Both the position numbers and the translations under genes were made by a program. From positions 7,564,001 to 7,628,000 of the forward strand of contig NZ_CP107976.1 in NCBI RefSeq assembly GCF_036099295.1: a stretch of DNA of 64,000 nt. Reading direction: 5' to 3'. The notes beneath the pieces were generated by a model. That model worked only from the letters and a program-made list of their open reading frames with translations, was not told the origin of the DNA and did not search any database. Below are positions 47,737-63,651 of the stretch, one piece after another (the first letter of the stretch is position 1; each line of letters starts with the position of its first letter). The stretch comes from Streptomyces sp. NBC_00358 (GTDB lineage: Bacteria > Actinomycetota > Actinomycetes > Streptomycetales > Streptomycetaceae).

Positions 47737-47815
47737 CGCAACCATCGAAAGGCCCCGCGCAACGAACACGCGGCCGGGATGCGATGAACGCAACGATCTT
47801 GCGGAGATGCGCAAG
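47737..47815 (+). promoter_or_regulatory. Helically phased CGCAAC motif array (probable Lrp-type operator)
   Basis: CGCAAC occurs at 47737, 47758 and 47789, and the variant CGCAAG at 47810. Spacings are 21, 31 and 21 bp, close to two, three and two turns of the helix. The last two motifs also frame the dyad cttgcg-n6-cgcaag (47798-47815). The array ends 10 bp before a putative -35 box. Phased half-sites are characteristic of Lrp/AsnC proteins that wrap DNA, and an Lrp gene lies just after the permease. Confidence 0.65.
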
Positions 47816-47824
47816 GTTGCTGCA

Positions 47825-47853
47825 TTACGCCCGTGAAGCCGGACTCATAGGGT
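47825..47853 (+). promoter_or_regulatory. Putative promoter of the amino-acid permease
   Basis: TTACGC (47825-47830), a 17-bp spacer and TAGGGT (47848-47853) resemble a sigma-HrdB type promoter. The rest of this 402-bp gap (47560-47961) holds the guaB1 terminator, the phased motifs and a GC-rich leader with the binding site AAGGAG before the permease start. Confidence 0.5.
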
Positions 47854-47961: not shown

Positions 47962-49443
47962 GTGCTCGACCAAGGCGCACCCCCGCAGTCCCCACCCATG
48001 TCGACCGCGCCCTCCCCGGGGGTCGGCGCGCGGCTCATGCGCCGAAAGCCGGTGGAACGCCTGGTGGAGGAGGGCGGCCAGGGCGAGGGAGGCTCGTTGC
48101 GGCGCTCCCTCGGCCTGTGGCAGCTCACCATGATCAGCATCGGAGCCACGCTCGGCACCGGCATCTTCGTCGTCCTCGGTCAGGCCGTCCCCAAGGCCGG
48201 GCCGGCGGTCACCCTGTCCTTCGTGATCGCCGGTCTCACGGCGCTCTTCTCCGCCCTCTCCTACGCCGAGCTGGCCGGCACCATTCCGGTCGCCGGATCC
48301 TCGTACTCGTACGCGTACGCAACGATGGGCGAGCTGATCGCCTGGATCTGCGGCTGGTGCCTGGTCCTGGAGTACGGCGTCTCGGTCGCGGCCGTCGCGG
48401 TCGGCTGGGGCGAGTACCTGAACGAACTGCTCGACGGCACCATCGGCGTCACCATTCCGGACGCGCTGTCCGCGCCGCCCGGTGACGGGGGCATCTTCAA
48501 CCTGCCCGCGCTCATCGTGGTGATGCTCGCGATGGCGTTCCTGCTCGGCGGAGCGCGGGAGTCCGCGCGCGCCAACACCATCATGGTCACGGTGAAGATC
48601 GCCGCGCTGGTGCTGTTCTGCGCGATCGGCGTCCAGGGCTTCCGCTCCGGCAACTACGACCACTTCATGCCGCTCGGCATGGCGGGCGTCAGCGCCGCCG
48701 GCGCCACCCTGTTCTTCTCCTACATCGGCTTCGACGCCGCCTCCACCGCCGGTGAGGAGGCCAAGGACCCGCAGCGCGACCTGCCCCGCGCGATCATGCT
48801 CTCGCTGGTCATCGTGACCGCCCTGTACGTCCTCGTCGCGGCCGTCGCCGTCGGCGCGATGCCCTGGCGGCAGTTCGGCGACGCGCACGCCGCGCTCGCC
48901 GAGATCATGAAGGACGTCACCGGGCAGACCTTCTGGGGCACGCTGCTGGCGGGCTGCGCGGTCATCGCCATCGCGAGTGTCGTGCTGACCGTGCTCTACG
49001 GCCAGACCCGCATCCTGTTCGCGATGGGCCGCGACGGCCTGGTGCCCAAGGTGTTCGCCAAGGTCCACCCGAAGACCGGCACGCCCCGGGCCAACACGGT
49101 CATCGTCTCGCTGTTCTGCGGTGTCCTCGCCGCCGCGATCCCGCTCGGCCAGCTCGCCGACGCCACCAGCATCGGTACGCTCTTCGCCTTCGCACTGGTC
49201 AACGTCGCCGTCGTCGTGCTGCGCCGGACGCGCCCGGCCATGCGCCGTACCTTCCGGGTTCCGCTCGCTCCGGTGCTGCCCGCCATCGGCTTCCTGCTGT
49301 GCGTGTGGATGATGGCCAGTCTCTCCGCCGTGACCTGGGTGGTCTTCGGAGTCTGGATGGCCGTCGGGCTCGTGTTCTACTTCACTTATGGCTACCGCCG
49401 GTCCCGGATGGCGACCGTGGAACCCGTCGCCGAGCAACCGTAG
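47962..49443 (+). CDS. APC superfamily amino acid permease
   Basis: A 493-residue membrane protein with about twelve membrane helices. A cytoplasmic N-terminus (1-50) leads to the APC signature SIGATLGTGIFVVLGQAV (helix 1, with the unwound GTG segment), then GLTALFSALSYAELAGTIPVAGSSYSYAY, and FFSYIGFDAASTAGEEAKDPQRDLP (helix 6 and loop). This pattern fits the cationic amino acid transporter-like group. The substrate cannot be fixed by eye. The GTG start has AAGGAG 7 bases upstream. The Lrp regulator gene starts 30 bp after its stop, so the pair is probably an operon under that regulator. Confidence 0.92.
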   Translation: MLDQGAPPQSPPMSTAPSPGVGARLMRRKPVERLVEEGGQGEGGSLRRSLGLWQLTMISIGATLGTGIFVVLGQAVPKAGPAVTLSFVIAGLTALFSALSYAELAGTIPVAGSSYSYAYATMGELIAWICGWCLVLEYGVSVAAVAVGWGEYLNELLDGTIGVTIPDALSAPPGDGGIFNLPALIVVMLAMAFLLGGARESARANTIMVTVKIAALVLFCAIGVQGFRSGNYDHFMPLGMAGVSAAGATLFFSYIGFDAASTAGEEAKDPQRDLPRAIMLSLVIVTALYVLVAAVAVGAMPWRQFGDAHAALAEIMKDVTGQTFWGTLLAGCAVIAIASVVLTVLYGQTRILFAMGRDGLVPKVFAKVHPKTGTPRANTVIVSLFCGVLAAAIPLGQLADATSIGTLFAFALVNVAVVVLRRTRPAMRRTFRVPLAPVLPAIGFLLCVWMMASLSAVTWVVFGVWMAVGLVFYFTYGYRRSRMATVEPVAEQP

Positions 49444-49473: not shown

Positions 49474-49926
49474 GTGCTGAACGATCTCGACGAACGCATC
49501 GTGCACGCCCTCGCCGAGGACGCCCGTCGCTCCTACGCGGACATCGGGCAACTGGTCGGGCTGTCCGCGCCCGCCGTGAAGCGGCGGGTGGACCGGCTGC
49601 GGGCCACCGGGGCCATCACCGGGTTCACCGTACGGGTGGACCCGGCGGCGCTCGGCTGGGAGACCGAGGGCTTCGTCGAGATCTACTGCCGGCGGAACAC
49701 CTCGCCGGAGACCATCCAGCGGGGCCTGGAGCGGTATCAGGAAGTCGTGGCCGCCTCCACCGTCACCGGGGAGGCGGACGCGGTGGTGCAGGTCTTCGCC
49801 TCGGACATGCGGCACTTCGAGCGGGTGCTCGAACGGATCGCGGGGGAGCCGTTCGTGGAACGGACGAAGTCCGTCCTCGTGCTTTCGCCGCTGCTGCGGA
49901 GGTTTTCCTCGGGGTCGCCCACGTAG
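49474..49926 (+). CDS. Lrp/AsnC family transcriptional regulator
   Basis: A 150-residue regulator with the N-terminal AsnC-type helix-turn-helix (LDERIVHALAEDARRSYADIGQLVGLSAP, then AVKRRVDRLRATGAI) and the C-terminal RAM ligand-binding domain (VVAASTVTGEADAVVQVFASD and related). It follows the amino acid permease by 30 bp, so it probably senses an amino acid and controls the permease promoter. The same type of phased motif also occurs upstream of the nitrilase-amine oxidase pair at 60.9 kb, a possible second target. Confidence 0.92.
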   Translation: MLNDLDERIVHALAEDARRSYADIGQLVGLSAPAVKRRVDRLRATGAITGFTVRVDPAALGWETEGFVEIYCRRNTSPETIQRGLERYQEVVAASTVTGEADAVVQVFASDMRHFERVLERIAGEPFVERTKSVLVLSPLLRRFSSGSPT

Positions 49927-49980
49927 TCGGCGCCCCCATCAACGCTGGTGCGCCCGAGGGGGTCGGGGGGCCTGCCTCCG

Positions 49981-50036
49981 CGCGGCTGCGGGATTGTCGT
50001 GGCTGGGCGCGCAGTTCCCCGCGCCCCTTACGGGCG
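49981..50036. repeat. Copy of a repeated Streptomyces intergenic sequence
   Basis: The stretch containing gtggctgggcgcgcagttcc and then ccgcgccccttacgggcgc matches, from memory, a short sequence found in very many Streptomyces intergenic regions. It can fold by gggcgcg (50005-50011) with cgcgccc (50020-50026). It lies between convergent lrp and gntR and may act as their terminator. Confidence 0.6.
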
Positions 50037-50058
50037 CTCCCGCGCCCGGAGCGGACCG

Positions 50059-50799
50059 CTACTCCGCTGTCTTCCTCGCCAGGGCGTTGTTCCCGATGGA
50101 GTTGTGGACGCTGAAGCTCACCGCGTCCGAGCGGTAGCGGTCGTCGGACCATTCCACCGGGCGTCCCTCGCGGGTGGTCGTGACGCGGCGGACGCGCAGC
50201 AGGGGGCTCGTGCGGCGGACTCCGAGCAGGTCGGCGTCCCGGGCGCCGGCCGCGACGGCGTCGATGACGTGCTCGCCGTACGCGAAGACCAGACCGGTGT
50301 TCTCGAAGAGCCGCTGCGTGACGGAGGGGCACTCGGGCTCGATCGCCGCCACCGCGGGGGAGATCCAGTCCGCGTACACCGTGCGCTCCAGCAGCACCGG
50401 CTCGCCGTCCAGGCCGCGGACCCGCAGCACATGCAACACCTTTGTCCTCTCGCGGAGTTGGAGGCGTACGGCGTCCTCGGCGGTCGCCGGGCGGAACTCC
50501 TGCGCCACCACGTGCCCCGTCGCCCCGCGCCCCATCGCGCGCGCCCACTGGGCGAAGCTGCGCAGTTCGGCGAAGCTCTGGCTGCGGCGGCCCGCGAGGA
50601 CCACCCGGCGGGCGCCCTGGCGTGAGCCGATGAGCCCCTCGGCGGTCAGGGCCGCGACGGCCTGGCGGACCGTGCCACGCGAGACGCCGTACTGGGCCGC
50701 GAGGTCGGTCTCCGCCGGCAGCAGGCTGCCCACGGTGTACTCCTCGCGGTCGATCGCCCGCCGCAGCTCCTCGGCGATCTCCTCGTGTCGCGCCGCCAT
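50059..50799 (-). CDS. GntR family (HutC/UTRA) transcriptional regulator
   Basis: A 246-residue repressor-type protein. The N-terminal winged helix (LLPAETDLAAQYGVSRGTVRQAVAALTAEGLI, about 25-58) is followed by a UTRA ligand domain (from about 90, with VLHVLRVRGLDGEPVLLERTVY and SVTQRLFENTGL). It is divergent from an ABC importer operon, with an 18-bp palindrome in the 211-bp gap, so it very likely represses that operon until its ligand, probably the transported compound or a product of it, is present. Confidence 0.9.
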   Translation of the reverse strand: MAARHEEIAEELRRAIDREEYTVGSLLPAETDLAAQYGVSRGTVRQAVAALTAEGLIGSRQGARRVVLAGRRSQSFAELRSFAQWARAMGRGATGHVVAQEFRPATAEDAVRLQLRERTKVLHVLRVRGLDGEPVLLERTVYADWISPAVAAIEPECPSVTQRLFENTGLVFAYGEHVIDAVAAGARDADLLGVRRTSPLLRVRRVTTTREGRPVEWSDDRYRSDAVSFSVHNSIGNNALARKTAE

Positions 50800-50951
50800 T
50801 CTTCCCCTCTGATCCGACCGCTGTGCACAGTGTGATCAGCCTAATCGACATCGGACGCCGATCCGCTGCGGCCGGGATTGTGCAGGGAATGGGGGGTCAC
50901 GGTTTCACCAAAGTTTACGAACAGGACACCATCGGCGGGCCTACTGGGGCC

Positions 50952-50969
50952 AACTTGTTCAGACAAGTT
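50952..50969. promoter_or_regulatory. GntR/UTRA operator upstream of the ABC importer
   Basis: aacttgttcagacaagtt is a perfect dyad with 7-bp arms and a 4-nt centre. The form TTGTnnnnACAA resembles sites of HutC-type GntR regulators. It lies 41 bp before the solute-binding protein start, in the gap shared with the gntR gene, where it could control both. A second short dyad ctgtgcacag is at 50820-50829, near the gntR start. Confidence 0.78.
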
Positions 50970-51010
50970 CTCCGTCCCGCTCCACCCTCGTGCGTCACCC
51001 TGGAGAGACC

Positions 51011-52168
51011 GTGACCGTGTTCCTGCCGAGGACCGCCCTCCTCACCGGCGGCATCGCCGTCGCCGCAGCACTCACCCTGAGCGCCTGCGGCGCCGCTCCC
51101 GACGACAAGGCGACCACCGCCGACGGCAAGAGCGCGGCCACCGCGACCTCCGCCGCGGACTTCGGTGGTCTCGACGCCCTCGTCAAGGCGGCCAAGAAGG
51201 AGGGCACGCTGCACGCGATCGCCCTTCCCCGCGACTGGGCCAACTACGGCGCCCTCATAGACGGCTTCACCAAGAAGTACGGCATCAAGATCGAGGTCGA
51301 GAGCCCGGACGGCACCAGCCAGGACGAGATCAACGCCGTCACCTCGCGCAAGGGCCAGGACCGCGCCCCCGACGTCCTCGACCTCGGCAGCTCCTTCGCG
51401 CTGAGCGCCGCCCAGCAGGGGCTGCTCGCCCCCTACAAGGTGACCGCCTTCGGCGACCTGCCCGCGGGACAGAAGGATTCCGCCGGGCGCTGGTACAACG
51501 ACTACGGCGGCTACATCTCCATCGGCTGCGACGCCAAGAAGGTCAAGGAGTGCCCGACGACCTTCAAGGACCTGCTCAAGCCGCAGTACAAGGGCCAGGT
51601 CGCGCTCAACGGCAACCCCACCAAGTCCGGTTCGGCCTTCGGCGGCGTGTACGCGGCCTCACTGGCGAGCGGCGGCTCCTTCGACGACATCCAGCCGGGC
51701 CTCGACTTCTTCGCCAAGCTGAAGAAGAACGGCAACTACACGCCCGTCGAGTCGACCCCGGCCACCGTCGAGAAGGGCGAGACGCCCATCAGCATCGACT
51801 GGGACTACCTGAACGCCGGTTACGCCGACGAGTTCAAGTCCAAGGGCGTCGACTGGAAGGTCTCCGTGCCCTCCGACGGCCAGTTCTCCCAGTACTACTC
51901 CCAGGCCGTCAACAAGGACGCCCCGCACCCGGCGGCGGCCCGTCTGTGGCAGGAGTACCTCTACAGCGCCGAGGGCCAGAACCTCTGGCTCAAGGGGTAC
52001 GCCCGCCCGGTCCTGATGCCCGCGATGGAGAAGGCCGGCACGCTGGACAAGACGGCCGCCGCGAAGCTCCCCGCGGTCTCCGGGACGCCGAGCTTCCCGA
52101 CCGAGGACCAGCAGAGCAAGGCCAAGACCGTGCTCGCCCAGGGCTGGGGCAAGGCCGTCTCCGGATGA
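51011..52168 (+). CDS. ABC importer substrate-binding lipoprotein (phosphonate/thiamine/iron class)
   Basis: A 385-residue extracellular binding protein. The signal ends in a lipobox (LTLSACGAA, cysteine near residue 27). The mature part has the type 2 periplasmic-binding fold: GGLDALVKAAKKEGTLHAIALPRDWANYG near the start, GRAP-like RAPDVLDLGSSFALSA, then NDYGGYISIGCDAKKV and a late VNKDAPHPAAARLWQEYLYS. The class binds 2-aminoethylphosphonate, thiamine, polyamines, iron or similar. The substrate is not fixed by what I can see. The GTG at 51011 follows TGGAGAG. Permease genes follow with overlaps. Confidence 0.9.
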   Translation: MTVFLPRTALLTGGIAVAAALTLSACGAAPDDKATTADGKSAATATSAADFGGLDALVKAAKKEGTLHAIALPRDWANYGALIDGFTKKYGIKIEVESPDGTSQDEINAVTSRKGQDRAPDVLDLGSSFALSAAQQGLLAPYKVTAFGDLPAGQKDSAGRWYNDYGGYISIGCDAKKVKECPTTFKDLLKPQYKGQVALNGNPTKSGSAFGGVYAASLASGGSFDDIQPGLDFFAKLKKNGNYTPVESTPATVEKGETPISIDWDYLNAGYADEFKSKGVDWKVSVPSDGQFSQYYSQAVNKDAPHPAAARLWQEYLYSAEGQNLWLKGYARPVLMPAMEKAGTLDKTAAAKLPAVSGTPSFPTEDQQSKAKTVLAQGWGKAVSG

Positions 52169-53073
52169 CCACCGCTCTCACCGAGGCCCCGGCCGACGTG
52201 GCGCCCGCCGCTGCCCACCGGCAGCGGCGGGGCCGCCGCGCCACCGGTCCGCTCGCCGTCCTCCCGCTGCTCGTCTTCGTGGCGGTCTCCTTCGGCGTTC
52301 CCGCGCTCGCCATGCTGGGCGGCGCCTTCACCGTCAAGGACCAGACCACCGGCGCCAGTTCGTACACCACGGCGAACCTGACCGGCTCGTTCCAGGGCGC
52401 GTACCTGACCGCTCTGATCGGCAGCGTCAAGCTGTCCGCCGTCTCCGCGGGTCTGGCGACCCTCCTCGGACTGCCGCTCGCCCAGGCCGTGGTGACCTCC
52501 CGCTTCCGGGGGCTGCGCGAGGCCGTGCTCACCGCCTCCGGGGTCCTCGCCAACTTCGGCGGCGTCCCGCTGGCCTTCGCCTTCGTCGCGACCCTCGGCA
52601 ACTCCGGCGTGCTGACACGGCACTTGAGCCTCGCCGACAAGGGCTGGAACCTCTACAGCTTCTGGGGTCTGGTCGTCGTCTACCTGTACTTCCTGATCCC
52701 GCTCATGGTCCTCACCATCACGCCCGCCCTCGACGGCCTGCGCTCCCAGTGGCGCGAGGCGGCGCAGAACAACGGCGCCACCTCCGTCCAGTACTGGCGG
52801 CACGTGGCGCTGCCCGTCCTCATGCCCTCGCTCCTCGGCGGACTCGTGCTCCTGTTCGGCAGCGCCTTCGCCGCGTACGCCACCGCCGCCGCCATGGTGG
52901 GCAGCGCGGTGCCGCTCGTCACCCTGCAGATCGCCGACGCCATCTCCGGCAACGTGCTGGTCGGCCAGGAGAACGTGGCGCTCGCCCTCAGCCTCGACAT
53001 GGTCCTCATCGCGGGCCTGGTCATGGCCGTGTACCTGCCCCTGCAACGACGGAGCGCGCGATGGCTCGCCTGA
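52165..53073 (+). CDS. ABC importer permease subunit 1
   Basis: A 302-residue inner-membrane protein with six or so membrane helices and the coupling EAA loop, read here as EAAQNNGATSVQYWRHVALPVLMPSLLGG (about 192-220). It forms a heterodimer with the next gene product. The start ATG overlaps the binding-protein stop (ATGA) and its end overlaps the second permease by 13 bp. Confidence 0.92.
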   Translation: MTTALTEAPADVAPAAAHRQRRGRRATGPLAVLPLLVFVAVSFGVPALAMLGGAFTVKDQTTGASSYTTANLTGSFQGAYLTALIGSVKLSAVSAGLATLLGLPLAQAVVTSRFRGLREAVLTASGVLANFGGVPLAFAFVATLGNSGVLTRHLSLADKGWNLYSFWGLVVVYLYFLIPLMVLTITPALDGLRSQWREAAQNNGATSVQYWRHVALPVLMPSLLGGLVLLFGSAFAAYATAAAMVGSAVPLVTLQIADAISGNVLVGQENVALALSLDMVLIAGLVMAVYLPLQRRSARWLA

Positions 53074-53885
53074 ACCTGTGGCGCTGGGTGGTCCTCGCCC
53101 TGGCCGCGCTGTACTTCCTGGTGCCCATGGCCGCGTCCGTGATCTTCACGGTCGACGTGCCGGGGCAGGGCGTCACCTTCGACGCCTACAGCCAGATCGT
53201 GTCCGCCGACGGATTCGTCTCCAGCCTGCTGCTCTCGCTGGAACTCGCCGCCGCGACCATCGTCGTGGTGCTGCTCCTGATGGTGCCCGCCACCGTCGCG
53301 CTGCGGCTCGGCTCGCCGAAACTGCGGCCGGTCGTCGAGGTGGTGTGCTCCCTGCCGCTGGTCGTCCCGCCCATCGCGTTCGTCGCGGGGATCGCCACCG
53401 TCCTGAAGTGGGGGCCCGAATATCTGTCGCGCACCCCGCTGTTCGAGACGTTCGTGGCGATCCAGGACCCGGGCTTCCCGGTCGTCCTCGTCCTCGCGTA
53501 CGTCGTGATGGCGCTGCCGTTCGTGTACCGGGCGCTGGACGCGGGGCTGCGGGCCGTCGATGTCCGCACCCTCGTCGAGGCGGCCCGCAGCTGCGGCGCG
53601 AGCCGGCCGCAGGCGCTCGTGCGCGCGGTGCTGCCCAATCTGCGCGGCGCGCTGCTCAACGCCTCCTTCCTCACCCTGGCCCTGGTGCTCGGCGAGTTCA
53701 CGGTCGCGCGCCTGCTCGGCTACCAGCCGTTCGCCGTGTGGATCTACAACATCGGCGGCTCGCAGGCCCAGATGTCCGTCGCCGTCTCCGTGCTCAGCCT
53801 GTTCGTCACCTGGGCCCTGCTCCTCGCGCTCGCCGTCTTCGGCGGCCGCTCCCGTACCGCTTCCGCCTCCCAGGGACAACCATGA
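53061..53885 (+). CDS. ABC importer permease subunit 2
   Basis: A 274-residue inner-membrane protein with about six helices. The EAA motif is EAARSCGASRPQALVRAVLPNLRGALLN (about 174-200). It is homologous in plan to the preceding permease. The ATG start at 53061 lies inside the end of permease 1 and its stop overlaps the ATPase start. Confidence 0.92.
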   Translation: MARLNLWRWVVLALAALYFLVPMAASVIFTVDVPGQGVTFDAYSQIVSADGFVSSLLLSLELAAATIVVVLLLMVPATVALRLGSPKLRPVVEVVCSLPLVVPPIAFVAGIATVLKWGPEYLSRTPLFETFVAIQDPGFPVVLVLAYVVMALPFVYRALDAGLRAVDVRTLVEAARSCGASRPQALVRAVLPNLRGALLNASFLTLALVLGEFTVARLLGYQPFAVWIYNIGGSQAQMSVAVSVLSLFVTWALLLALAVFGGRSRTASASQGQP

Positions 53886-54943
53886 CCGCCGCCACACCCG
53901 ACAAGGCCGCCACCGTCGAATTCCGGGGTCTCAGGCGGGAGTTCGGTCCGACCGTCGCCCTCGACGGCCTGGACCTCGCCGTCCGGCCCGGTGAACTCCT
54001 CGCCCTGCTCGGCCCCTCCGGCTGCGGCAAGACCACCGCGCTGCGCATGCTGGCCGGCTTCGAACATCCCGATTCCGGTGAGGTGCTGGTCGACGGCCAG
54101 GACATCACCCGGGTTCCGGCGCACCGCCGCGACGCCGGGATGGTCTTCCAGTCGTACAGCCTCTTCCCGCATCTGAACGCCCTGGACAACGTGGCCTTCG
54201 GACTGCGGATGCGCAAGGTGCGCACGGCCGAACGGCGTTCCCGCGCAGCCGAGTTGCTCGACCTCGTGGGCCTCGGGGACAAGGGCGAACGGTTCCCGCA
54301 CCAGCTCTCCGGAGGCCAGCAGCAGCGCGTCGCGCTGGCCCGCGCGCTCGCCCTGCGGCCCCGCGTCCTGCTGCTCGACGAGCCGCTCTCCGCGCTGGAC
54401 GCCAAGGTGCGGCTCTCGCTGCGTGAGGAGATCCGCCGCCTGCAACTGGAACTCGGCATCACCACCCTGTTCGTGACCCACGACCAGGAAGAGGCGTTGT
54501 CCATGGCGGACCGGGTCGCGGTGATGCGGGCCGGCCGGCTCGAACAGTGCGCGTCGCCCGCCGAGTTGTACGGGCGCCCCGCCACCGCCTTCGTCGCCGA
54601 GTTCGTGGGCACGATGAGCCGGCTCCCGGGAACCCTCGACGGCGACCGGGTCGAGGTGCTCGGGAGGCGACTGCCGGTGGACGGGGACGCGCCCGCCCCG
54701 GGGGAGGTGCATGTGCTGGTACGGCCCGAGGCGGTCCAGGTGAGCGCCGACGACACCGGTGACGCGCGGGTCGTGGCCACCGCGTTCCTGGGCGCGGCCA
54801 CCCGCGTGACCGTGCGGCTCGCCGACGGCACCGAGGTCAAGGCCGACCTGCCCACGCACGAGGCCGCGACGCTCACGTCGGGCGCCGCCGTGACCGTCAC
54901 CCTGCCGGACCGTCCGGTCCTGGTCGCCGAACGCACGGGCTGA
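53882..54943 (+). CDS. ABC importer ATP-binding subunit with TOBE domain
   Basis: A 353-residue ATPase of the spermidine/iron/AEP (PotA-like) group. It has Walker A GPSGCGKTT (about 47-55), a Q-loop FQSYSLFPHLNALDN, signature LSGGQQQRVALARALA, Walker B LLLDEPLSALDAKVR, and H-loop FVTHDQEEAL. The C-terminal third (about 250-353) is a TOBE-like regulatory domain with DARVVATAFLGAATRVTVRL. The gene closes a four-gene operon with tight overlaps. A 752-bp repetitive gap follows. Confidence 0.94.
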   Translation: MTAATPDKAATVEFRGLRREFGPTVALDGLDLAVRPGELLALLGPSGCGKTTALRMLAGFEHPDSGEVLVDGQDITRVPAHRRDAGMVFQSYSLFPHLNALDNVAFGLRMRKVRTAERRSRAAELLDLVGLGDKGERFPHQLSGGQQQRVALARALALRPRVLLLDEPLSALDAKVRLSLREEIRRLQLELGITTLFVTHDQEEALSMADRVAVMRAGRLEQCASPAELYGRPATAFVAEFVGTMSRLPGTLDGDRVEVLGRRLPVDGDAPAPGEVHVLVRPEAVQVSADDTGDARVVATAFLGAATRVTVRLADGTEVKADLPTHEAATLTSGAAVTVTLPDRPVLVAERTG

Positions 54944-55695
54944 GGAGCGACCGGCATCGCCCGCACGAGGCCACCGGCAGGCCGCCCCGCCCGGGCGCCC
55001 GGCACCGCGACGGGCGCGGCCTCCGGAGGCAGGCCCGCCCGCGGCAACGGGGGCGCGGCCCGCGAGGACCGGCAGCGGTCCCCGGGTGGGCGCGCCGTCG
55101 CGGTCCGCGCCGCGGACGGACCCTGCGTCACCCGGCCCCGGATTCCGGCTCCGGTACCGGCGTGACGGCCGGGCCCGGCGCCGGGCGCCCTGCCCCGCCC
55201 GGTCCCCGGACCGGCCGGCGGGCGTCGTGTCCTGCCCTGCACTGCACTGCCCTGCACTTCACGGTGCGGACAGGTTCGCGCGGTCGGGGTCCGGGCGTCG
55301 TACTCGCCCGACTGTCCGGACCGGCCGGTGGGGCGCCGTGTCGGGCACCCCGCGGTGCGGACGGGTTCGCACAGTCGGCACCCGAGCGCCCCACCCGTCC
55401 GGCGCCCGGACCGGTCGGCGGGTGCCCGGCCCGGCACTCGGGGGTGCCGGGCCGGCGGGCCGGTGGGCCCGGGGGCCCGTGGCGGACGCGTGTGCCTCGC
55501 TGCCAGGTCGGCATCGCGCGGCCGGGGTGCCCGGCCGTTCAGGCCCGCGCGATCCCGGCCTCGCACCGCCGGTCCGGCGCCCCGGCAGCCGCCCCGGCCC
55601 CACCGCCGCGGAATCGACCACCGCATTCGATGCCCCTCACCCGAACCCCTCACCCGAACCCGTCACTCGATCCCCCACCGAGAAAAGAGAACCCA
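54944..55695 (+). other. Long GC-rich repetitive intergenic region
   Basis: 752 bp with no supported gene; open frames here have the composition of random GC-rich DNA. It holds imperfect repeat units that begin with ccggaccggccggcgg or close variants at 55206, 55316 and 55406 and share the words ggtgcggac and gttcgc. A 12-bp-arm hairpin lies at 55426-55455. From about 55620 it becomes less GC-rich (cactcgatcccccaccgagaaaagag), holding the leader of the next gene. Confidence 0.6.
55426..55455 (+). terminator. Hairpin in the gap after the ABC operon
   Basis: Arms ccggcccggcac (55426-55437) and gtgccgggccgg (55444-55455), perfect 12 bp, loop tcgggg. It is far from the ABC operon (over 480 bp), so a terminator role is not certain. 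Confidence 0.4.
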
Positions 55696-57180
55696 GTGAC
55701 CCACCGCACCACCGCCCGGCCTCCCCTTCAGGCCGTCCTGTTCGACATGGACGGCACGCTCGTGGACACCGAGCGCCTGTGGTGGGAGGCGGTGGAGCAG
55801 GTGGCCGACGGGTTCGGGCACGTGCTGACGGGGGCCGATCAGCCGCAGGTGCTCGGGCGGCCCGTCGAGTACACCGCCGCGTGGTTGGCCGGGATCACCG
55901 GTGGGCCGGGAGAGGGGATCGCCGCCGAACTGCACCGGCGGTTCGCCGACCGGGTCCGAACGGGCATCGTGCCCCGCCCGGGGGCGACGGAACTGCTCGA
56001 CGCGCTCGCCCGTGAAGGTGTGCCCACCGCTCTGGTGACCGCGTCCCCGCGCGCGGTCGCCGACACCGTTCTCGAAGCGCTCGGCGCCGAACGCTTCGCC
56101 GTCTCCGTCACCGCCGACGACACCGAACGCACCAAGCCCGCCCCCGACCCCTACCTCGCCGCCTGCCGGGCTCTCGGCGTCGAACCCGCCGCCTGCGTCG
56201 CCGTCGAGGACACCCAGACCGGCGTCACCTCCGCCGAGTCGGCGGGCTGCGCCGTCCTCGCGGTGCCCTCGCTCGCGCCGATCGCGCCCGCGGCCGGCCG
56301 CACCGTGCTCGGCAGCCTGGAGGGGGTGTCCCCGGCCCGGCTGCGCGCGATGGTCGCCCCGGGCGAGCTGCGGGTGATGACCTGGAACCTCTGGTTCGGC
56401 GGCACCAAGGTCGACGGGTACCGCGAGAAGCAGATCGAGATCATCGCCGGGACGGGCGCGGACGTGATCGGCCTCCAGGAGACGTACGGGAGCGCGGCAC
56501 GGGAACTCGCCGACGCCCTCGGCTGGCATCACCACCAGGCGGGCGACAACCTCGGCGTCATCAGCCGCCACCCGATCACCGCCCGGCTGGGCGACCCGGA
56601 CGTCGGTTTCTACGGGGGGACCGGCGTCCGGCTCGAACTGGACGGCGGGCAGCGGGTGGACGTCTGGAGCGTCCACCTGGACTGCGCCCCGTACGGTCCG
56701 TACGAGGCACGCTTCGACGGACTTCCGGCGGCCGCGCTGATCGCGCACGAGAGCGGGCGGCTCGCCCGGATGGGGGAGATCCTGCGGCGGATCGCCGACT
56801 CCGCCGAGGAGTCCGTGCCCGTCGTCCTCACCGGCGACTTCAACGTGCCCTCGCATCTGGACTGGCCGGATGTCGCCTGGCCGGTGACGCGGGCCGCCGA
56901 GGAGGCGGGCCTGCGCGACTCCTACCGCGCGGCCCACCCGGACCCGGTACGGGATCCCGGGCACACCTGGTCGCCCGTCCACGCCGAGCACGAGGACGGC
57001 AGCGGGCGCCAAGAACCGCAGGACCGGATCGACTTCGTCCTGCACCGGGGCCTGACCGTCCTCGACTCCCGCACTCTGGTCAGCGGCACTCCGCGGGCCT
57101 GGCCGGAGGTGGCGGGCAACGACTGGCCCTCCGACCACGCGGCGGTCGTCACCGTATTCGCCCTGCCCGGCCACGAATGA
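55696..57180 (+). CDS. Fused HAD phosphatase and endonuclease/exonuclease/phosphatase (EEP) protein
   Basis: A 494-residue cytoplasmic fusion. Residues 15-215 are a HAD subfamily I hydrolase: VLFDMDGTLVD (nucleophile Asp), ALVTASPRA (motif II), KPAPDPYL (motif III Lys) and VAVEDTQTGVTSA (motif IV). Residues 222-494 are an EEP phosphodiesterase domain: RVMTWNLWFGG, IGLQETYG (metal Glu), VWSVHLD, VLTGDFNVPSHLD (Asp and Asn), DRIDFVLH and PSDHAAVV (catalytic His). No signal peptide. One open frame without a break joins them. An EEP plus HAD pair could hydrolyse a phosphodiester and then the monoester. It lies downstream of the ABC importer but 752 bp away. Confidence 0.88.
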   Translation: MTHRTTARPPLQAVLFDMDGTLVDTERLWWEAVEQVADGFGHVLTGADQPQVLGRPVEYTAAWLAGITGGPGEGIAAELHRRFADRVRTGIVPRPGATELLDALAREGVPTALVTASPRAVADTVLEALGAERFAVSVTADDTERTKPAPDPYLAACRALGVEPAACVAVEDTQTGVTSAESAGCAVLAVPSLAPIAPAAGRTVLGSLEGVSPARLRAMVAPGELRVMTWNLWFGGTKVDGYREKQIEIIAGTGADVIGLQETYGSAARELADALGWHHHQAGDNLGVISRHPITARLGDPDVGFYGGTGVRLELDGGQRVDVWSVHLDCAPYGPYEARFDGLPAAALIAHESGRLARMGEILRRIADSAEESVPVVLTGDFNVPSHLDWPDVAWPVTRAAEEAGLRDSYRAAHPDPVRDPGHTWSPVHAEHEDGSGRQEPQDRIDFVLHRGLTVLDSRTLVSGTPRAWPEVAGNDWPSDHAAVVTVFALPGHE

Positions 57181-57354
57181 GGGAAGGTGTCCCGTGACGG
57201 CGTGCAGCGTGCGTTGAACGCTCAGTCAGTCCGGACCATTGCGGTACGGGCTCAACATCGACTAGTTTGAGCCGCGCGCCCGCTACCCGCGAGTAACACA
57301 TGGGTTACCACACGTCACCCGGCCATCCGACCGTCCTGTCGTCCTGGGGAGACC

Positions 57355-59667
57355 ATGCGCTGGCCCTTCGGTCGTCCGTCCACGGTCCGTTCGCGGATCG
57401 TGGCCCTCTCGATCGCTCCGGTGATCGCCCTGATGACACTGTGGAGTTTCGCCATGGTGTCCGTCACCGGGGAACTCCGCGCACTGGTCCGCCTCCAGGG
57501 TGTCTACAACACCTTCGGTACGCCGGTCGACACGGCGGTAGGCCAGATCCAGATCGAACGACGCCTGGCCGCCGCCTACTTGGGCACGCGGCAGGGAACG
57601 GCGGCAGGCGTCGCGCTGCTGGCCCAGGAGCGCCGCACCGACCGCGCGGTGACCGCCCTGCGCGCGGCGGTCCGGGGCGGGGACCGGGGCAGTCTGTCCG
57701 GTCAGCAGCGGCAGGCGCTCGACGCCATGCTCCATTCCGTCGACGGGCTGGAGGGGCTCCGCGACCGGGTGTTGTCCCACACCGTCACCTGGGACCGGGC
57801 CGTGGCCGAATACAGCACCCTGGTGGAGCCCTCGTTCGACGTCGAGTCCGCGCTGACGGCGCTCCAGGCGGGTCAACTGGCCCGTGAGTCACAGACGGTC
57901 GTCGAGCTGGTGCGGGTCCGGGACTTCGTGTCCCGCGAGGACGCGCTCGTCGCCGGGGCACGAGCCGCCGGAAGCCTCACGGACGGCCAGTACGACACCC
58001 TCACCGCGACCGTCGAGGACCGCCGGGTCTTCGAACGGACCTATGTGCCCGACCTTCCGGCCGACTCGCGCGCCCTCTTCGAGGACTTCCAGCGCGACGA
58101 CCTCCACAAGGAGCTGACCCGGGACGAGGACGCCCTGCTCCGGGCGGGCGCGCGGCGCGCGGGCGAAGCGGTGGCGGCCGGCTCCTGGCGCACCACCACC
58201 GACCGCGCCGTCAAGCGGTACATGCGGCTGTGCACCCGGTCGGCGGTCAACTCCGCCGCGCGCGGGCGGACGTTCGCCTACCAGGAGCTGGCCAAGGCCG
58301 CGATCGTCGGCGTGCTCGGCCTGGCCGCCGTGGGCCTGTCCCTCTGGTTCGCGGTGCGCGGCGCCCGGCGGATCTCGCGCCGCCTGGAGTCGCTGCGGGA
58401 CGCCGCCGATCTGCTGACCAATCGTCAGCTTCCGCACGTCATGGAGCGGTTGAGCGCCGGAGAAGAGATCGACGCCGCCGCCGAGGCGCCGCCGCTGGCC
58501 GACGTGGAGGCGGTGGCCGACGAGATCGGCCAGGTCGGCCGGTCCTTCAACACCGCCCGGCTCGCCGCCGTGGAGGCCGCCGTCAAGCAGGCCACCCTGC
58601 GCCGCGGGCTGTTCGCGGTGCTCCTGAACATCGCCCGCCGCAACCAGGCGCTCGTCCACCGCCAGCTCAAGCTCGTCGACACGCTGGAGCGGCGCACCGA
58701 CGACCCGGACGTCCTGGACGACCTGTTCCGGATCGATCACCTCACCACCCGGATGCGGCGCCACGCGGAGAGCCTGATCATCCTCTCCGGCTCGGCCCCG
58801 GGCCGCCGTTGGCGTCGGCCGGTACCCGTCGCCGAGGTGGTGTCCTCCGCGGTGAGCGAGATCGAGCAGTACGCGCGCGTCGTGGTGCCCCCGATGCCCG
58901 AGGTCGGCGTCGCGGCGGACGCCGTCGCCGACGTCGTCCATCTGATCGCCGAACTCGTCGAGAACGCGACCGTGTTCTCACCGCCCCGCACCCAGGTGAC
59001 CCTGCGCACCGGACGGGCCGGGAGCGGCTTCGTCCTGGAGATCGACGACCGGGGCCTCGGCCTCGCGCCGGACCAGATCGACGAGGCCCACCGCACCCTC
59101 ACCACGCCGGAGGACTTCGACCCGACCCGGCACGACCGGCTCGGGCTGTACGTGGTGGGGCGGCTCGCGGCACGCCACGGCATCAAGGTCACACTGTGCC
59201 GCTCGCCGTACGGCGGTACGACGGCGGTGGTGCTGTTGCCGGAGGCCGTTCTCGCGCCGGTGGACCCGGCGCGCCCGGCGGCGGACCCGGAACCGGTGGG
59301 GCTGCCCGTCCGGACCGGCACCCTGGTCCTCCCGGGGCAGCGGAGGACGCGGCGTGAACTGGAGGACGGCACCGCGCCGCAGGAGGCTCCGGTTCCGGAC
59401 CCGCCGGTGCTGCCCACCCGGGTCCGCCAGCGGGCCCTCGCCCCCGAGCTGCGCGACGCGGCACCCGTGGCCGACGGGGCGCCGGAGCGCGAGGTCACGG
59501 CGGAGGAGATGCGCGCCGTCTTCGGGGCCTTCCAGCGCGGCCTCGACCGTGGCCGCAAGGGCCTGCCCACACAGCCGGAAACCGGCGGGCCCGGTACAGC
59601 GCGGTCCGGCCCCGCCGCGCAGCGAACCGACACCGAGGAAGGGACGGACGCCGACGATGCGCCCTGA
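57355..59667 (+). CDS. Conservon sensor kinase-like protein (CvnA type) with nitrate-sensing domain
   Basis: A 770-residue membrane protein. Helix one is SIAPVIALMTLWSFAMVSV (about 20-38), then an extracytoplasmic NIT-type sensor region with IQIERRLAAAYLGTRQG, a second helix (AAIVGVLGLAAVGLSLWFAV near 317), a linker with HAMP-like RISRRLESLRDAADLLTN, and an ATPase domain with N box ELVENATVFSPP, G1 DRGLGL and G2 RLGLYVVGRLAARHGI. The usual phospho-acceptor histidine box is not obvious, as in other CvnA proteins. The C-terminal 150 residues are Pro-rich and probably disordered. The start overlaps a RBS GGGGAGA. It leads a three-gene operon. Confidence 0.9.
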   Translation: MRWPFGRPSTVRSRIVALSIAPVIALMTLWSFAMVSVTGELRALVRLQGVYNTFGTPVDTAVGQIQIERRLAAAYLGTRQGTAAGVALLAQERRTDRAVTALRAAVRGGDRGSLSGQQRQALDAMLHSVDGLEGLRDRVLSHTVTWDRAVAEYSTLVEPSFDVESALTALQAGQLARESQTVVELVRVRDFVSREDALVAGARAAGSLTDGQYDTLTATVEDRRVFERTYVPDLPADSRALFEDFQRDDLHKELTRDEDALLRAGARRAGEAVAAGSWRTTTDRAVKRYMRLCTRSAVNSAARGRTFAYQELAKAAIVGVLGLAAVGLSLWFAVRGARRISRRLESLRDAADLLTNRQLPHVMERLSAGEEIDAAAEAPPLADVEAVADEIGQVGRSFNTARLAAVEAAVKQATLRRGLFAVLLNIARRNQALVHRQLKLVDTLERRTDDPDVLDDLFRIDHLTTRMRRHAESLIILSGSAPGRRWRRPVPVAEVVSSAVSEIEQYARVVVPPMPEVGVAADAVADVVHLIAELVENATVFSPPRTQVTLRTGRAGSGFVLEIDDRGLGLAPDQIDEAHRTLTTPEDFDPTRHDRLGLYVVGRLAARHGIKVTLCRSPYGGTTAVVLLPEAVLAPVDPARPAADPEPVGLPVRTGTLVLPGQRRTRRELEDGTAPQEAPVPDPPVLPTRVRQRALAPELRDAAPVADGAPEREVTAEEMRAVFGAFQRGLDRGRKGLPTQPETGGPGTARSGPAAQRTDTEEGTDADDAP

Positions 59668-60160
59668 CCAGCTCCCAGAGCACCCCGCTCGCACCCTGGA
59701 GGCCCGGAACCCGGAACCGGCGGGTGCCGCCGCCGACCCAGGGGGCGACGGGGACCGGCCCGGCACCGATCTCGGCTGGCTGCTCGACGACCTCGTGGCC
59801 AGGACCGACCACGTCCGCCAGGCCGTGCTCCTCACCGCCGACGGTCTCCCGCTGAGCTGCTCGGACGGCATGCGCAGACGGGACATCGAGCACCTCGCCG
59901 CGGTCTGCGCCGGCTTCCACAGCCTGGCCCGTTCGGCGGGCGAACGCTTCGCCGCCGGCGGTGTGCGCCAGACCATGGTGATGCTCGACGACGCCTACCT
60001 CTTCATCACCCCGGCGGGTGACGGAAGCCGGCTGGCCGTGCTCAGCGAGGTGCAGACGGACGTCGGACAGCTCGCCCACGAGATGGAACTGCTCGTCCGC
60101 CGCGTCGGCCGCCACATGGCCGCCGCCGTACGTTCGGCGGCTGACCCCGCGGGCCACTGA
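59657..60160 (+). CDS. Roadblock/LC7 domain protein (CvnB type)
   Basis: A 167-residue protein with a disordered N-terminus (1-35) and a Roadblock/LC7 domain (DLGWLLDDLVARTDHVRQAVLLTADGLPL to MVMLDDAYLFIT and SEVQTDVGQLAHEMELLV). In conservons this family supports a small GTPase. It overlaps the sensor gene by 11 bp. The TGA is followed after 7 bp by the next gene. Confidence 0.92.
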   Translation: MRPDQLPEHPARTLEARNPEPAGAAADPGGDGDRPGTDLGWLLDDLVARTDHVRQAVLLTADGLPLSCSDGMRRRDIEHLAAVCAGFHSLARSAGERFAAGGVRQTMVMLDDAYLFITPAGDGSRLAVLSEVQTDVGQLAHEMELLVRRVGRHMAAAVRSAADPAGH

Positions 60161-60167
60161 TCCGGCC

Positions 60168-60548
60168 GTGACCGACGACCACTGGTACGAGGACGAGACA
60201 GGGCCGATGGTCCGGCCCTACACCGTCACCGGGGGCCGGACCAGGCCCTCGGACCGGCACGTCATCGATCTGATGTCGCAGGTCACGGTCCTGGAGACGG
60301 ACGGTGGACGGCCCGGCGTCGATCATTCGTCGGCGGCCCTGCTCGACCTGGCCCGCCGCGGGCCCCGGCCGGTCGTCGAGCTCGCCGCGGACGCCGACCT
60401 GCCGCTGACCGTCGTCCGCGTCCTGCTCGGCGACCTGGCCGAGGCCGGTCTGGTGCGCATCGACGAGCCGCACCGTCCGCCACCCGGAGGCCCGGTGGCC
60501 GACCCGGAACTGCTGCGCGAGATCGTGGAGCGGCTGCGCGAACTGTGA
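60168..60548 (+). CDS. DUF742 winged-helix protein (CvnC type)
   Basis: A 126-residue protein with the DUF742 features: MVRPYTVTGGRTRP near residue 14, HVIDLMSQV, then PVVELAADADLPLTVVRVLLGDLAEAGLV, a winged-helix-like stretch. It is the third standard conservon gene. The fourth, a small MglA-like GTPase (CvnD), should follow directly but does not; 501 bp of noncoding sequence come next. The GTG start is chosen because it gives the conserved N-terminus after CvnB. Confidence 0.92.
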   Translation: MTDDHWYEDETGPMVRPYTVTGGRTRPSDRHVIDLMSQVTVLETDGGRPGVDHSSAALLDLARRGPRPVVELAADADLPLTVVRVLLGDLAEAGLVRIDEPHRPPPGGPVADPELLREIVERLREL

Positions 60549-60907: not shown

Positions 60908-60966
60908 CGCAACGAATCGCCGCCGAGCGCCCTACGCACGCAACGAATCGTTCGGTGGCGCGCAAC
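60908..60966 (+). promoter_or_regulatory. Helically phased CGCAAC array upstream of the nitrilase gene
   Basis: CGCAAC occurs at 60908, 60939 and 60961; the first two are part of the 12-mer cgcaacgaatcg. Spacings of 31 and 22 bp are about three and two helical turns. The second copy forms the dyad aacga-a-tcgtt. The array ends 15 bp (start to start) from a putative -35 box, exactly as at 47.8 kb upstream of the amino acid permease. Probable Lrp-type operator. Confidence 0.65.
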
Positions 60967-60975
60967 AGGTCCGTC

Positions 60976-61005
60976 TTGTCCGCCCGAGCCGGCCGACCGT
61001 ACCGT
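60976..61005 (+). promoter_or_regulatory. Putative promoter of the nitrilase gene
   Basis: TTGTCC (60976-60981), an 18-bp spacer and TACCGT (61000-61005) resemble a sigma-HrdB promoter. It lies 45 bp before the ATG and directly after the phased CGCAAC motifs. Confidence 0.5.
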
Positions 61006-61049: not shown

Positions 61050-61877
61050 ATGCGCACAGCCCTGCTCCAGAGCTCCGGCCGCCCCGGCTCGATCGTCGAG
61101 AACCTCAAGGTGCTCGACGACGCCGCGGGCCGCGCCGCCGCGTCGGGCGCCGGGCTGGTCGTGACGTCGGAGATGTTCCTGACCGGCTACGCCATCGGCG
61201 ACGACATCGCACGCCTCGCCGAGCCCGCCGACGGCGACTCCGCCGACGCGGTGGCCGACATCGCCACCCGCCACGGCGTGGCGATCGCCTACGGCTACCC
61301 CGAGCGCGAGGCCGGACCGGGTGAGGGCGAAGGCTCCCAGGCCGACGGCGCGGCGAGGGTCTTCAACTCCGTGCAGTTGATCTCCGCCGACGGCGCCCGG
61401 CTCGCGAACTACCGCAAGACCCACCTCTTCGGCTGCTTCGAGCACGACCACTTCACGCCCGGCGACCAGCCCGTCGTACAGGCGGAACTGGACGGACTGC
61501 GGGTCGGCCTCATGATCTGCTACGACGTCGAGTTCCCGGAGAACGTCCGCGCGCACGCCCTCGCCGGCACCGACCTGCTGCTCGTGCCGACGGCGCAGAT
61601 GCACCCGTTCCAGTTCGTCGCCGAGTCCGTCGTCCCGGTCCGTGCCTTCGAGAACCAGATGTACGTCGCCTACGTCAACCGCACCGGTCCGGAAGGGGAG
61701 TTCGAGTTCGTCGGACTGTCCACGCTGGCCGGGCCCGACGGAGTCGCCCGCGCCCGAGCGGGCCGCGGCGAGGAACTGGTCCTGGCGGACGCCGACCCCG
61801 TACTCCTCGCGGCCTCGCGTGAGACGAACCCGTACCTGAAGGACCGCCGCCCCGGTCTCTACGGGTCCCTCGTCTGA
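61050..61877 (+). CDS. Nitrilase superfamily carbon-nitrogen hydrolase
   Basis: A 275-residue amidase of the nitrilase fold. The catalytic triad is visible: Glu in TSEMFLTGY, Lys in YRKTHLFG, Cys in MICYDVEFPE. A fourth conserved Glu region and HPFQFVAESVVPVRAFENQMYVAYVNRTG follow. It is an amide or N-carbamoyl hydrolase by family, not a true nitrilase by any visible mark. The ATG at 61050 follows GGTGGAG and gives the family start MRTALLQSSGRPG. The amine oxidase gene begins 79 bp downstream, so the two are probably one operon. Confidence 0.9.
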   Translation: MRTALLQSSGRPGSIVENLKVLDDAAGRAAASGAGLVVTSEMFLTGYAIGDDIARLAEPADGDSADAVADIATRHGVAIAYGYPEREAGPGEGEGSQADGAARVFNSVQLISADGARLANYRKTHLFGCFEHDHFTPGDQPVVQAELDGLRVGLMICYDVEFPENVRAHALAGTDLLLVPTAQMHPFQFVAESVVPVRAFENQMYVAYVNRTGPEGEFEFVGLSTLAGPDGVARARAGRGEELVLADADPVLLAASRETNPYLKDRRPGLYGSLV

Positions 61878-61956: not shown

Positions 61957-63651
61957 ATGACGTCCACCGTGCCCAACGCCGTCCAGCACGCCGACGTGCA
62001 GCAGCCGCCGATCACCATGTTCGGCCCGGACTTCCCCTACGCCTACGACGACTTCCTCGCGCACCCCGCGGGCCTCGGGCAGATACCCGCGACCGAGCAC
62101 GGCACCGAGGTCGCCGTCATCGGCGGCGGACTGTCCGGCATCGTGGCCGCCTACGAGCTGATGAAGATGGGCCTCAAGCCCGTCGTCTACGAGGCCGACG
62201 AGATCGGCGGCCGGCTGCGCACGGTCGGTTTCGAGGGCTGCGACCCCTCGCTGACCGCCGAGATGGGCGCGATGCGTTTCCCGCCCTCCTCCACCGCCCT
62301 CCAGCACTACATCGACCTGGTGGGACTTCAGACCCGCCCGTTCCCCAACCCCCTCGCCGAGTCCACGCCTTCGACGGTCGTCGACCTCAAGGGCGAGTCG
62401 CACTACGCGACCTCCGTCGACGACCTGCCGCAGGTCTACCGCGACGTCATGAACGCCTGGAACGCCTGCCTGGAGGACGGCGCCGACTTCTCCGACATGA
62501 ACCAGGCCATGCGGGAGCGCGACGTTCCGCGCATCCGGGAGATCTGGTCGAAGCTCGTCGAGAAGCTCGACAACCAGACCTTCTACGGCTTCCTCTGCGA
62601 GTCGGAGTCCTTCAAGTCCTTCCGGCACCGCGAGATCTTCGGCCAGGTCGGCTTCGGCACCGGCGGCTGGGACACCGACTTCCCGAACTCCATCCTGGAG
62701 ATCCTGCGCGTCGTCTACACCGAGGCCGACGACCACCACCGCGGCATCGTCGGCGGCTCCCAGCAGCTTCCGCTGCGGCTGTGGGAGCGCGAGCCGCAGA
62801 AGATCGTCCACTGGGCGTACGGCACCTCGCTGTCGACGCTGCACGACGGCGCCCCGCGTCCGGCCGTGACCCGGCTGAACCGCACCGCGGGCAACGGCAT
62901 CACGGTGACGGACGCGAACGGTGACATCCGCACGTTCAAGGCGGCGATCTTCACCGCCCAGTCCTGGATGCTGCTCTCCAAGGTCGCCTGCGACGACTCG
63001 CTCTTCCCGATCGACCACTGGACGGCGATCGAGCGCACCCACTACATGGAGAGCTCCAAGCTCTTCGTCCCCGTCGACCGGCCGTTCTGGCTGGACAAGG
63101 ACGAGGAGACGGGTCGTGACGTCATGTCGATGACGCTCACCGACCGCATGACGCGCGGTACCTACCTCCTGGACGAGGGCCCGGACAAGCCCGCCGTCAT
63201 CTGCCTCTCGTACACGTGGTGCGACGACAGCCTCAAGTGGCTGCCGCTGTCCGCGAGCGAGCGGATGGAGGTCATGCTGAAGTCGCTCGGCGAGATCTAC
63301 CCGAAGGTCGACATCAGGAAGCACATCATCGGCAACCCGGTGACCGTGTCCTGGGAGAACGAGCCCTACTTCATGGGCGCGTTCAAGGCCAACCTGCCCG
63401 GCCACTACCGCTACCAGCGCCGCCTGTTCACGCACTTCATGCAGGAGTCGCTGCCCGAGGACAAGCGGGGCATCTTCCTCGCCGGCGACGACATCTCCTG
63501 GACGGCCGGCTGGGCCGAGGGCGCCGTCCAGACCGCGCTGAACGCGGTCTGGGGCGTCATGCACCAGCTCGGCGGGACGACCGACCCGAGCAACCCCGGG
63601 CCCGGCGACGTCTACGACGAGATCGCCCCGGTGGAACTCCCCGAGGACTGA
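61957..63651 (+). CDS. Flavin monoamine oxidase family protein (amino acid monooxygenase/oxidase-like)
   Basis: A 564-residue flavoenzyme. The FAD-binding motif VIGGGLSGIVAAYELMKMG starts near residue 51, then VVYEADEIGGRLRT, EMGAMRFPPSSTAL (isoalloxazine contact) and the C-terminal FAD end FLAGDDISWTAGWAEGAVQ. Length and the RFPP motif fit L-amino acid oxidase and tryptophan or phenylalanine 2-monooxygenase types better than short amine oxidases. With the upstream amidase it could form an amino acid to amide to acid route (inference). AAGGAG lies 10 bases before the ATG. Confidence 0.87.
   Translation: MTSTVPNAVQHADVQQPPITMFGPDFPYAYDDFLAHPAGLGQIPATEHGTEVAVIGGGLSGIVAAYELMKMGLKPVVYEADEIGGRLRTVGFEGCDPSLTAEMGAMRFPPSSTALQHYIDLVGLQTRPFPNPLAESTPSTVVDLKGESHYATSVDDLPQVYRDVMNAWNACLEDGADFSDMNQAMRERDVPRIREIWSKLVEKLDNQTFYGFLCESESFKSFRHREIFGQVGFGTGGWDTDFPNSILEILRVVYTEADDHHRGIVGGSQQLPLRLWEREPQKIVHWAYGTSLSTLHDGAPRPAVTRLNRTAGNGITVTDANGDIRTFKAAIFTAQSWMLLSKVACDDSLFPIDHWTAIERTHYMESSKLFVPVDRPFWLDKDEETGRDVMSMTLTDRMTRGTYLLDEGPDKPAVICLSYTWCDDSLKWLPLSASERMEVMLKSLGEIYPKVDIRKHIIGNPVTVSWENEPYFMGAFKANLPGHYRYQRRLFTHFMQESLPEDKRGIFLAGDDISWTAGWAEGAVQTALNAVWGVMHQLGGTTDPSNPGPGDVYDEIAPVELPED

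Follow-up and report, generated by a model that had tools for sequence, protein, structure and literature searches.

The window, by which we mean the whole 64,000-nucleotide stretch of the Streptomyces sp. NBC_00358 chromosome analysed here, carries two loci of interest, all of whose features lie on the forward strand. The downstream locus consists of two genes, davA (61050-61877) and davB (61957-63651). The davB product aligns at 786 bits, over nearly the full length, with PDB 3we0 (L-amino acid oxidase/monooxygenase), which we take to be a Pseudomonas enzyme, and its sequence identifies it as an L-lysine 2-monooxygenase/oxidase. For davA, the profile matches (PF00795, E 2.7e-46) reach only the level of the nitrilase superfamily of amidases, so that the label of probable 5-aminovaleramidase comes from its pairing with davB. 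The initial annotation had named a nitrilase-amine oxidase pair devoted to flavin-oxidase and amidase catabolism. The enzyme families stand, but the 3we0 match and the pairing of the two genes point to the davAB pathway of lysine degradation rather than to generic amidase catabolism.

The upstream locus starts with an amino acid permease gene (47962-49443; the true start may be slightly further in), whose product scores 610.7 bits against TIGR00909, over the curated cut-off, and also, more weakly, resembles cationic amino-acid permeases; lysine is its presumed substrate. The next gene, lrp (49474-49926), begins 30 bp past the permease gene. Its product belongs to the Lrp/AsnC family, with an AsnC-type HTH and a Lrp/AsnC ligand-binding domain (PF13404, 6.9e-16, and PF01037, 3.1e-14), and we propose it as the owner of the array described below. 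Some 11 kb (49930-60548) separates lrp from davA in the lineage of the window, a stretch that holds a GntR gene and, by appearance, genes for an ABC transporter, a phosphatase/nuclease-like product, and a conservon (a sensor kinase with small partners). In compact relatives, the gap between lrp and davB is too small for this stretch.

Two promoters with a phased array

The dav promoter is preceded by three candidate operator sites. Site 1 (60908-60922, CGCAACGAATCGCCG) has 15 positions that are kept across 57 promoters of the genus, with unconserved flanks, and its sequence (GCAACGAATCGCCGC) contains a partial dyad, GCNNCGANTCGNNGC, which is complete in 23 of the 57. Site 2 (60939-60950, CGCAACGAATCG) starts 31 bp after site 1, and site 3 (60961-60966, CGCAAC) follows 22 bp after site 2 and 15 bp before the -35 element TTGTCC (60976-60981), of which TTGT is invariant in the 57 promoters and the next C is kept in 84%. 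An 18-bp spacer leads to the -10 element TACCGT (61000-61005), 39 bp past the start of site 3, where TANNNT is found in all 57 dav promoters. The three CGCAAC copies at 60908, 60939, and 60961, reported as 68, 37, and 15 bp from the -35 element, were confirmed when the positions were re-read, as the distances hold with the -35 element at 60976-60981.

At the permease promoter (47825-47853), with -35 TTACGC at 47825 and -10 TAGGGT at 47848 (TTAC and TAG..T being kept in relatives), the candidate sites lie at 47758-47763 (site 1, a match to the phased array), 47789-47803 (site 2, CGCAACGATCTTGCG, a dyad), and 47810-47815 (site 3, 15 bp before the -35 element). The previously given distances of 67, 36, and 15 bp to the -35 element are correct here, but the third copy reads CGCAAG and not CGCAAC; a fourth copy, an extra CGCAAC upstream of the array (47737-47742), is present in only some relatives. 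Because both promoters match the consensus weakly, neither was matched in a simple sigma-70 scan.

To express both arrays we used the pattern CGCAAY-N24-26-CGCAA-N16-17-CGCAA. It was composed after viewing both promoters of the window genome, and the independent evidence therefore comes from other genomes, gene linkage, and controls. In the 9.3-Mb genome the pattern has exactly two matches, the permease promoter and the dav promoter, compared with about 0.04 expected per genome, whereas the reversed pattern has none there and the array pattern itself none in 30 Mb of first-order Markov sequence. The array is thus a confirmed observation, far above chance. Its 12-mer CGCAACGAATCG also occurs exactly twice genome-wide, both times within the dav promoter. 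When one mismatch was allowed, 23 further genome positions appeared versus 10 for a control, and weaker targets beyond the two promoters are therefore possible.

Conservation of the array and its link to the regulator

A first draw covered 61 genomes of the genus, of which 59 have davB and 58 have the regulator. A second draw gave 130 genomes of the genus with both genes, and the same three genomes lacked both. In the joined draws, 183 genomes have both genes, five have neither, one has davB only, and none has the regulator only. The regulator thus accompanies davB in 183 of 184 cases, the sole exception being an assembly in 1,300 pieces (Fisher p 3e-9, with genomes counted as independent of shared descent). 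The two genes also tend to be neighbours: their gap is below 20 kb in 53 of 58 genomes and below 1.4 kb in 23 of them, where lrp lies directly upstream of the dav genes. A regulon "not evident from gene order", as it had been called, is an apt description of the window lineage but not of these compact relatives.

The initial annotation had proposed checking whether relatives that keep both operons also keep both arrays, and they do. Across the 61 genomes the pattern has 74 matches, all at dav or permease genes (dav promoters in 53 cases, permease promoters in 20, and a relocated davA in one), versus three for the reversed pattern. The spacing of 31 + 22 bp is found in 56 of 57 dav promoters, whereas that of the permease promoters in the genus is mostly 30 + 21 bp. 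In the 57 dav promoters, each site position carries about 1 to 2.8 bits and the DNA between the sites little information.

A few genomes depart from the usual arrangement. In one (G012), davA (C1:8924645-8925433, L196) and davB (C1:3154814-3156508, L123) are 5.8 Mb from each other; davA has retained the array, and davB has none before it. In three others (G002, G021, and G059; L120, L128, and L107), davA was not found and the array precedes davB; this is also its position in G045 (L108), which has just a 56% davA relative on another contig.

Several comparisons served as negative controls. Another family of the same order contributes 10 genomes with davB, in which no relative of the regulator was found at E 1e-55, and the array was absent before davAB in all seven of those examined. 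Within the genus, second davB copies (60-63% identical) had no array in the eight cases examined. Likewise, lrp loci without the permease have no array upstream of lrp, and autoregulation is therefore not general.

The array outside the genus

When 297 genomes across the class were searched, the array turned up in 27 genomes outside the genus. In 20 of these it adjoins a relative of Lrp (50-66% identity) and/or a dimethylargininase gene, and an ornithine aminotransferase gene comes next in the majority of loci that were inspected over a longer stretch; the remaining seven look like chance matches. Of the 20 arrays, 16 have a TANNNT -10 element 38-40 bp past site 3, as do all 57 dav promoters, and no such element was found at a control offset. 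The array thus recurs in other actinobacterial families at an unchanged distance from the -10 element, beside Lrp and dimethylargininase-ornithine aminotransferase genes, and a single pairing of operator and regulator appears to serve different pathways of basic amino-acid catabolism.

In family f19, represented by two genomes (G271 and G448; L288 and L293), the Lrp relative lies beside permease-davA-davB; in one genome two array sites, spaced 31 bp, precede davA, and the other shows none. The Lrp relatives of another family (f33; L209 and L210 in G258 and G273, and that of G241) have an in-frame stop within the match, and the gene may truly be shorter there.

The window genome itself encodes a second, separate Lrp paralogue with 56% identity (G000:C1:7914211-7914639, L276), which is roc-linked in that it lies beside dimethylargininase and ornithine aminotransferase genes; the lrp gene of the window adjoins the permease gene instead. 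No array was found at this dimethylargininase-linked paralogue, and operator and regulator can therefore part. In a tree of Lrp sequences, linkage to dav or to roc does not divide the genes into two clean clades. The branch that joins the Streptomyces dav-linked genes to those of f21/f17 is supported at 88/85, and the tree requires two switches between dav and roc linkage, with moderate support. On balance we favour the reading that a phased operator, down to its distance from the -10 element, and its Lrp-type regulator stayed near letter-for-letter constant over several actinobacterial families as arginine/ornithine and lysine targets were swapped at least twice (in the genus of the window and in f19).

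Proposed regulation and relation to known systems

Very probably, the array is the operator of the Lrp protein encoded at 49474-49926, which would jointly control davA-davB and permease-lrp, most likely as an activator. The array is linked to this one regulator gene by co-occurrence and by gene neighbourhood, both in the genus and beyond it. What the sequences show directly is the array with its conservation and its confinement to these targets, the genetic linkage to the regulator, and the enzyme families, whereas binding, ligand, and activation are predictions. The regulator, whose gene shares one operon with the permease, would occupy the three sites as an oligomer along a single face of the helix. 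The sites lie three and two helical turns apart and thus on the same face, a phasing that is expected for an Lrp oligomer, and the bound oligomer would end 15 bp before the weak -35 element. In this way, the regulator could control the davA-davB and permease-lrp operons together, with the former presumably converting lysine to 5-aminovaleramide and then to 5-aminovalerate. The signal would most likely be lysine itself or another basic amino acid related to it. Since every site lies upstream of the -35 element, and this element is weak in both promoters, their layout suggests activation as the sign of control. That one regulator joins uptake to catabolism, as first suggested, is supported as the best reading of the sequences, the array being kept at both promoters and linked to one lrp gene. 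The suggestion of Lrp as this regulator is probably right as to the Lrp/AsnC family, but the protein is most likely the product of a local gene in the permease operon and not a global Lrp.

The same regulator could also act on the array as a repressor or dual regulator that is released by lysine. Repression is known for some Streptomyces Lrp proteins, such as SCAB_Lrp2 on its own gene (PMC11609053), yet a position of all sites upstream of the -35 element and a fixed spacing to the -10 element are typical of activators, and dependence on an activator fits the weak -35 elements; we regard repression as unlikely, though it deserves some weight. Less probable still is that the array belongs to another co-occurring DNA-binding protein, for example a global regulator or the product of the GntR-type gene at 50059-50799. 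A GntR gene does lie near lrp in the window, and binding of Lrp to the array is a prediction. However, arrays accompany an Lrp relative in other families, the seven davB genomes examined in which no Lrp relative turned up had no array either, and the gap of less than 1.4 kb between lrp and davB in 23 genomes cannot fit davA plus a GntR gene.

We give hardly any credence to the idea that the two promoters resemble each other by chance, or through a shared ancestry of neighbouring DNA that has no function. The hexamer CGCAAC alone indeed shows no enrichment across the window, where it has 34 copies and 42 are expected, but two array matches in 9.3 Mb far exceed the expected number, and the sites are conserved where the flanks are not. 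Both versions are contradicted by the genus-wide array matches and the site-specific conservation.

With activation by the local Lrp protein as the preferred reading, lysine catabolism would gain a candidate regulator, operator, and small regulon in a genus for which our literature search found no described regulator of lysine monooxygenase. The dav promoter becomes a candidate lysine-responsive promoter, and the operator model extends, as a prediction, to the control of dimethylargininase-rocD genes elsewhere in the actinobacteria. An exchange of targets under a conserved operator is likely. The system would be an example, open to testing, of an operator and regulator whose joint architecture persists as their metabolic targets change and, if the regulon was truly rewired, a clean natural case with an unchanged operator.

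The closest parallel is found in Mycobacterium tuberculosis, where Rv2324 adjoins the arginine-induced roc cluster (Rv2319c-rocDE-Rv2323c) and is itself induced 6-fold by arginine (PMC4569260). Judging from the neighbouring gene family and the gene order, Rv2324 would fall in the same Lrp clade and be a counterpart of the window regulator. The two systems share a regulator gene beside a cluster for basic amino-acid catabolism, with induction by the substrate described for M. tuberculosis (PMC4569260), and the arrays outside the genus adjoin Lrp relatives and dimethylargininase genes of NF045659, a family that takes its name from the M. tuberculosis enzyme. They differ in that roc of M. tuberculosis concerns arginine/ornithine and the window system lysine. 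No operator for Rv2324/roc was seen in the passages of PMC4569260 that were consulted.

With Pseudomonas davBA, the window genes appear to share the same enzyme pair and reactions. The operator described here for the dav genes is separate, and our literature search found no paper linking Pseudomonas davBA to an Lrp/AsnC regulator. Within Streptomyces, SCO3361, SCAB_Lrp, and SCAB_Lrp2 belong to the same Lrp/AsnC family, and the site of SCAB_Lrp2, GTCCACGTCCCCGTCGAC (PMC11609053), is unlike CGCAACGAATCG of the window. These three proteins were studied for their control of antibiotic, thaxtomin, and developmental genes.

Finally, Escherichia coli Lrp, the feast/famine protein, binds multiple phased sites of about 15 bp with dyad character. 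Phased multiple sites are thus shared between the two systems. E. coli Lrp is, however, a global regulator with AT-rich sites, whereas that of the window appears to be a local one with GC-rich sites at two promoters.
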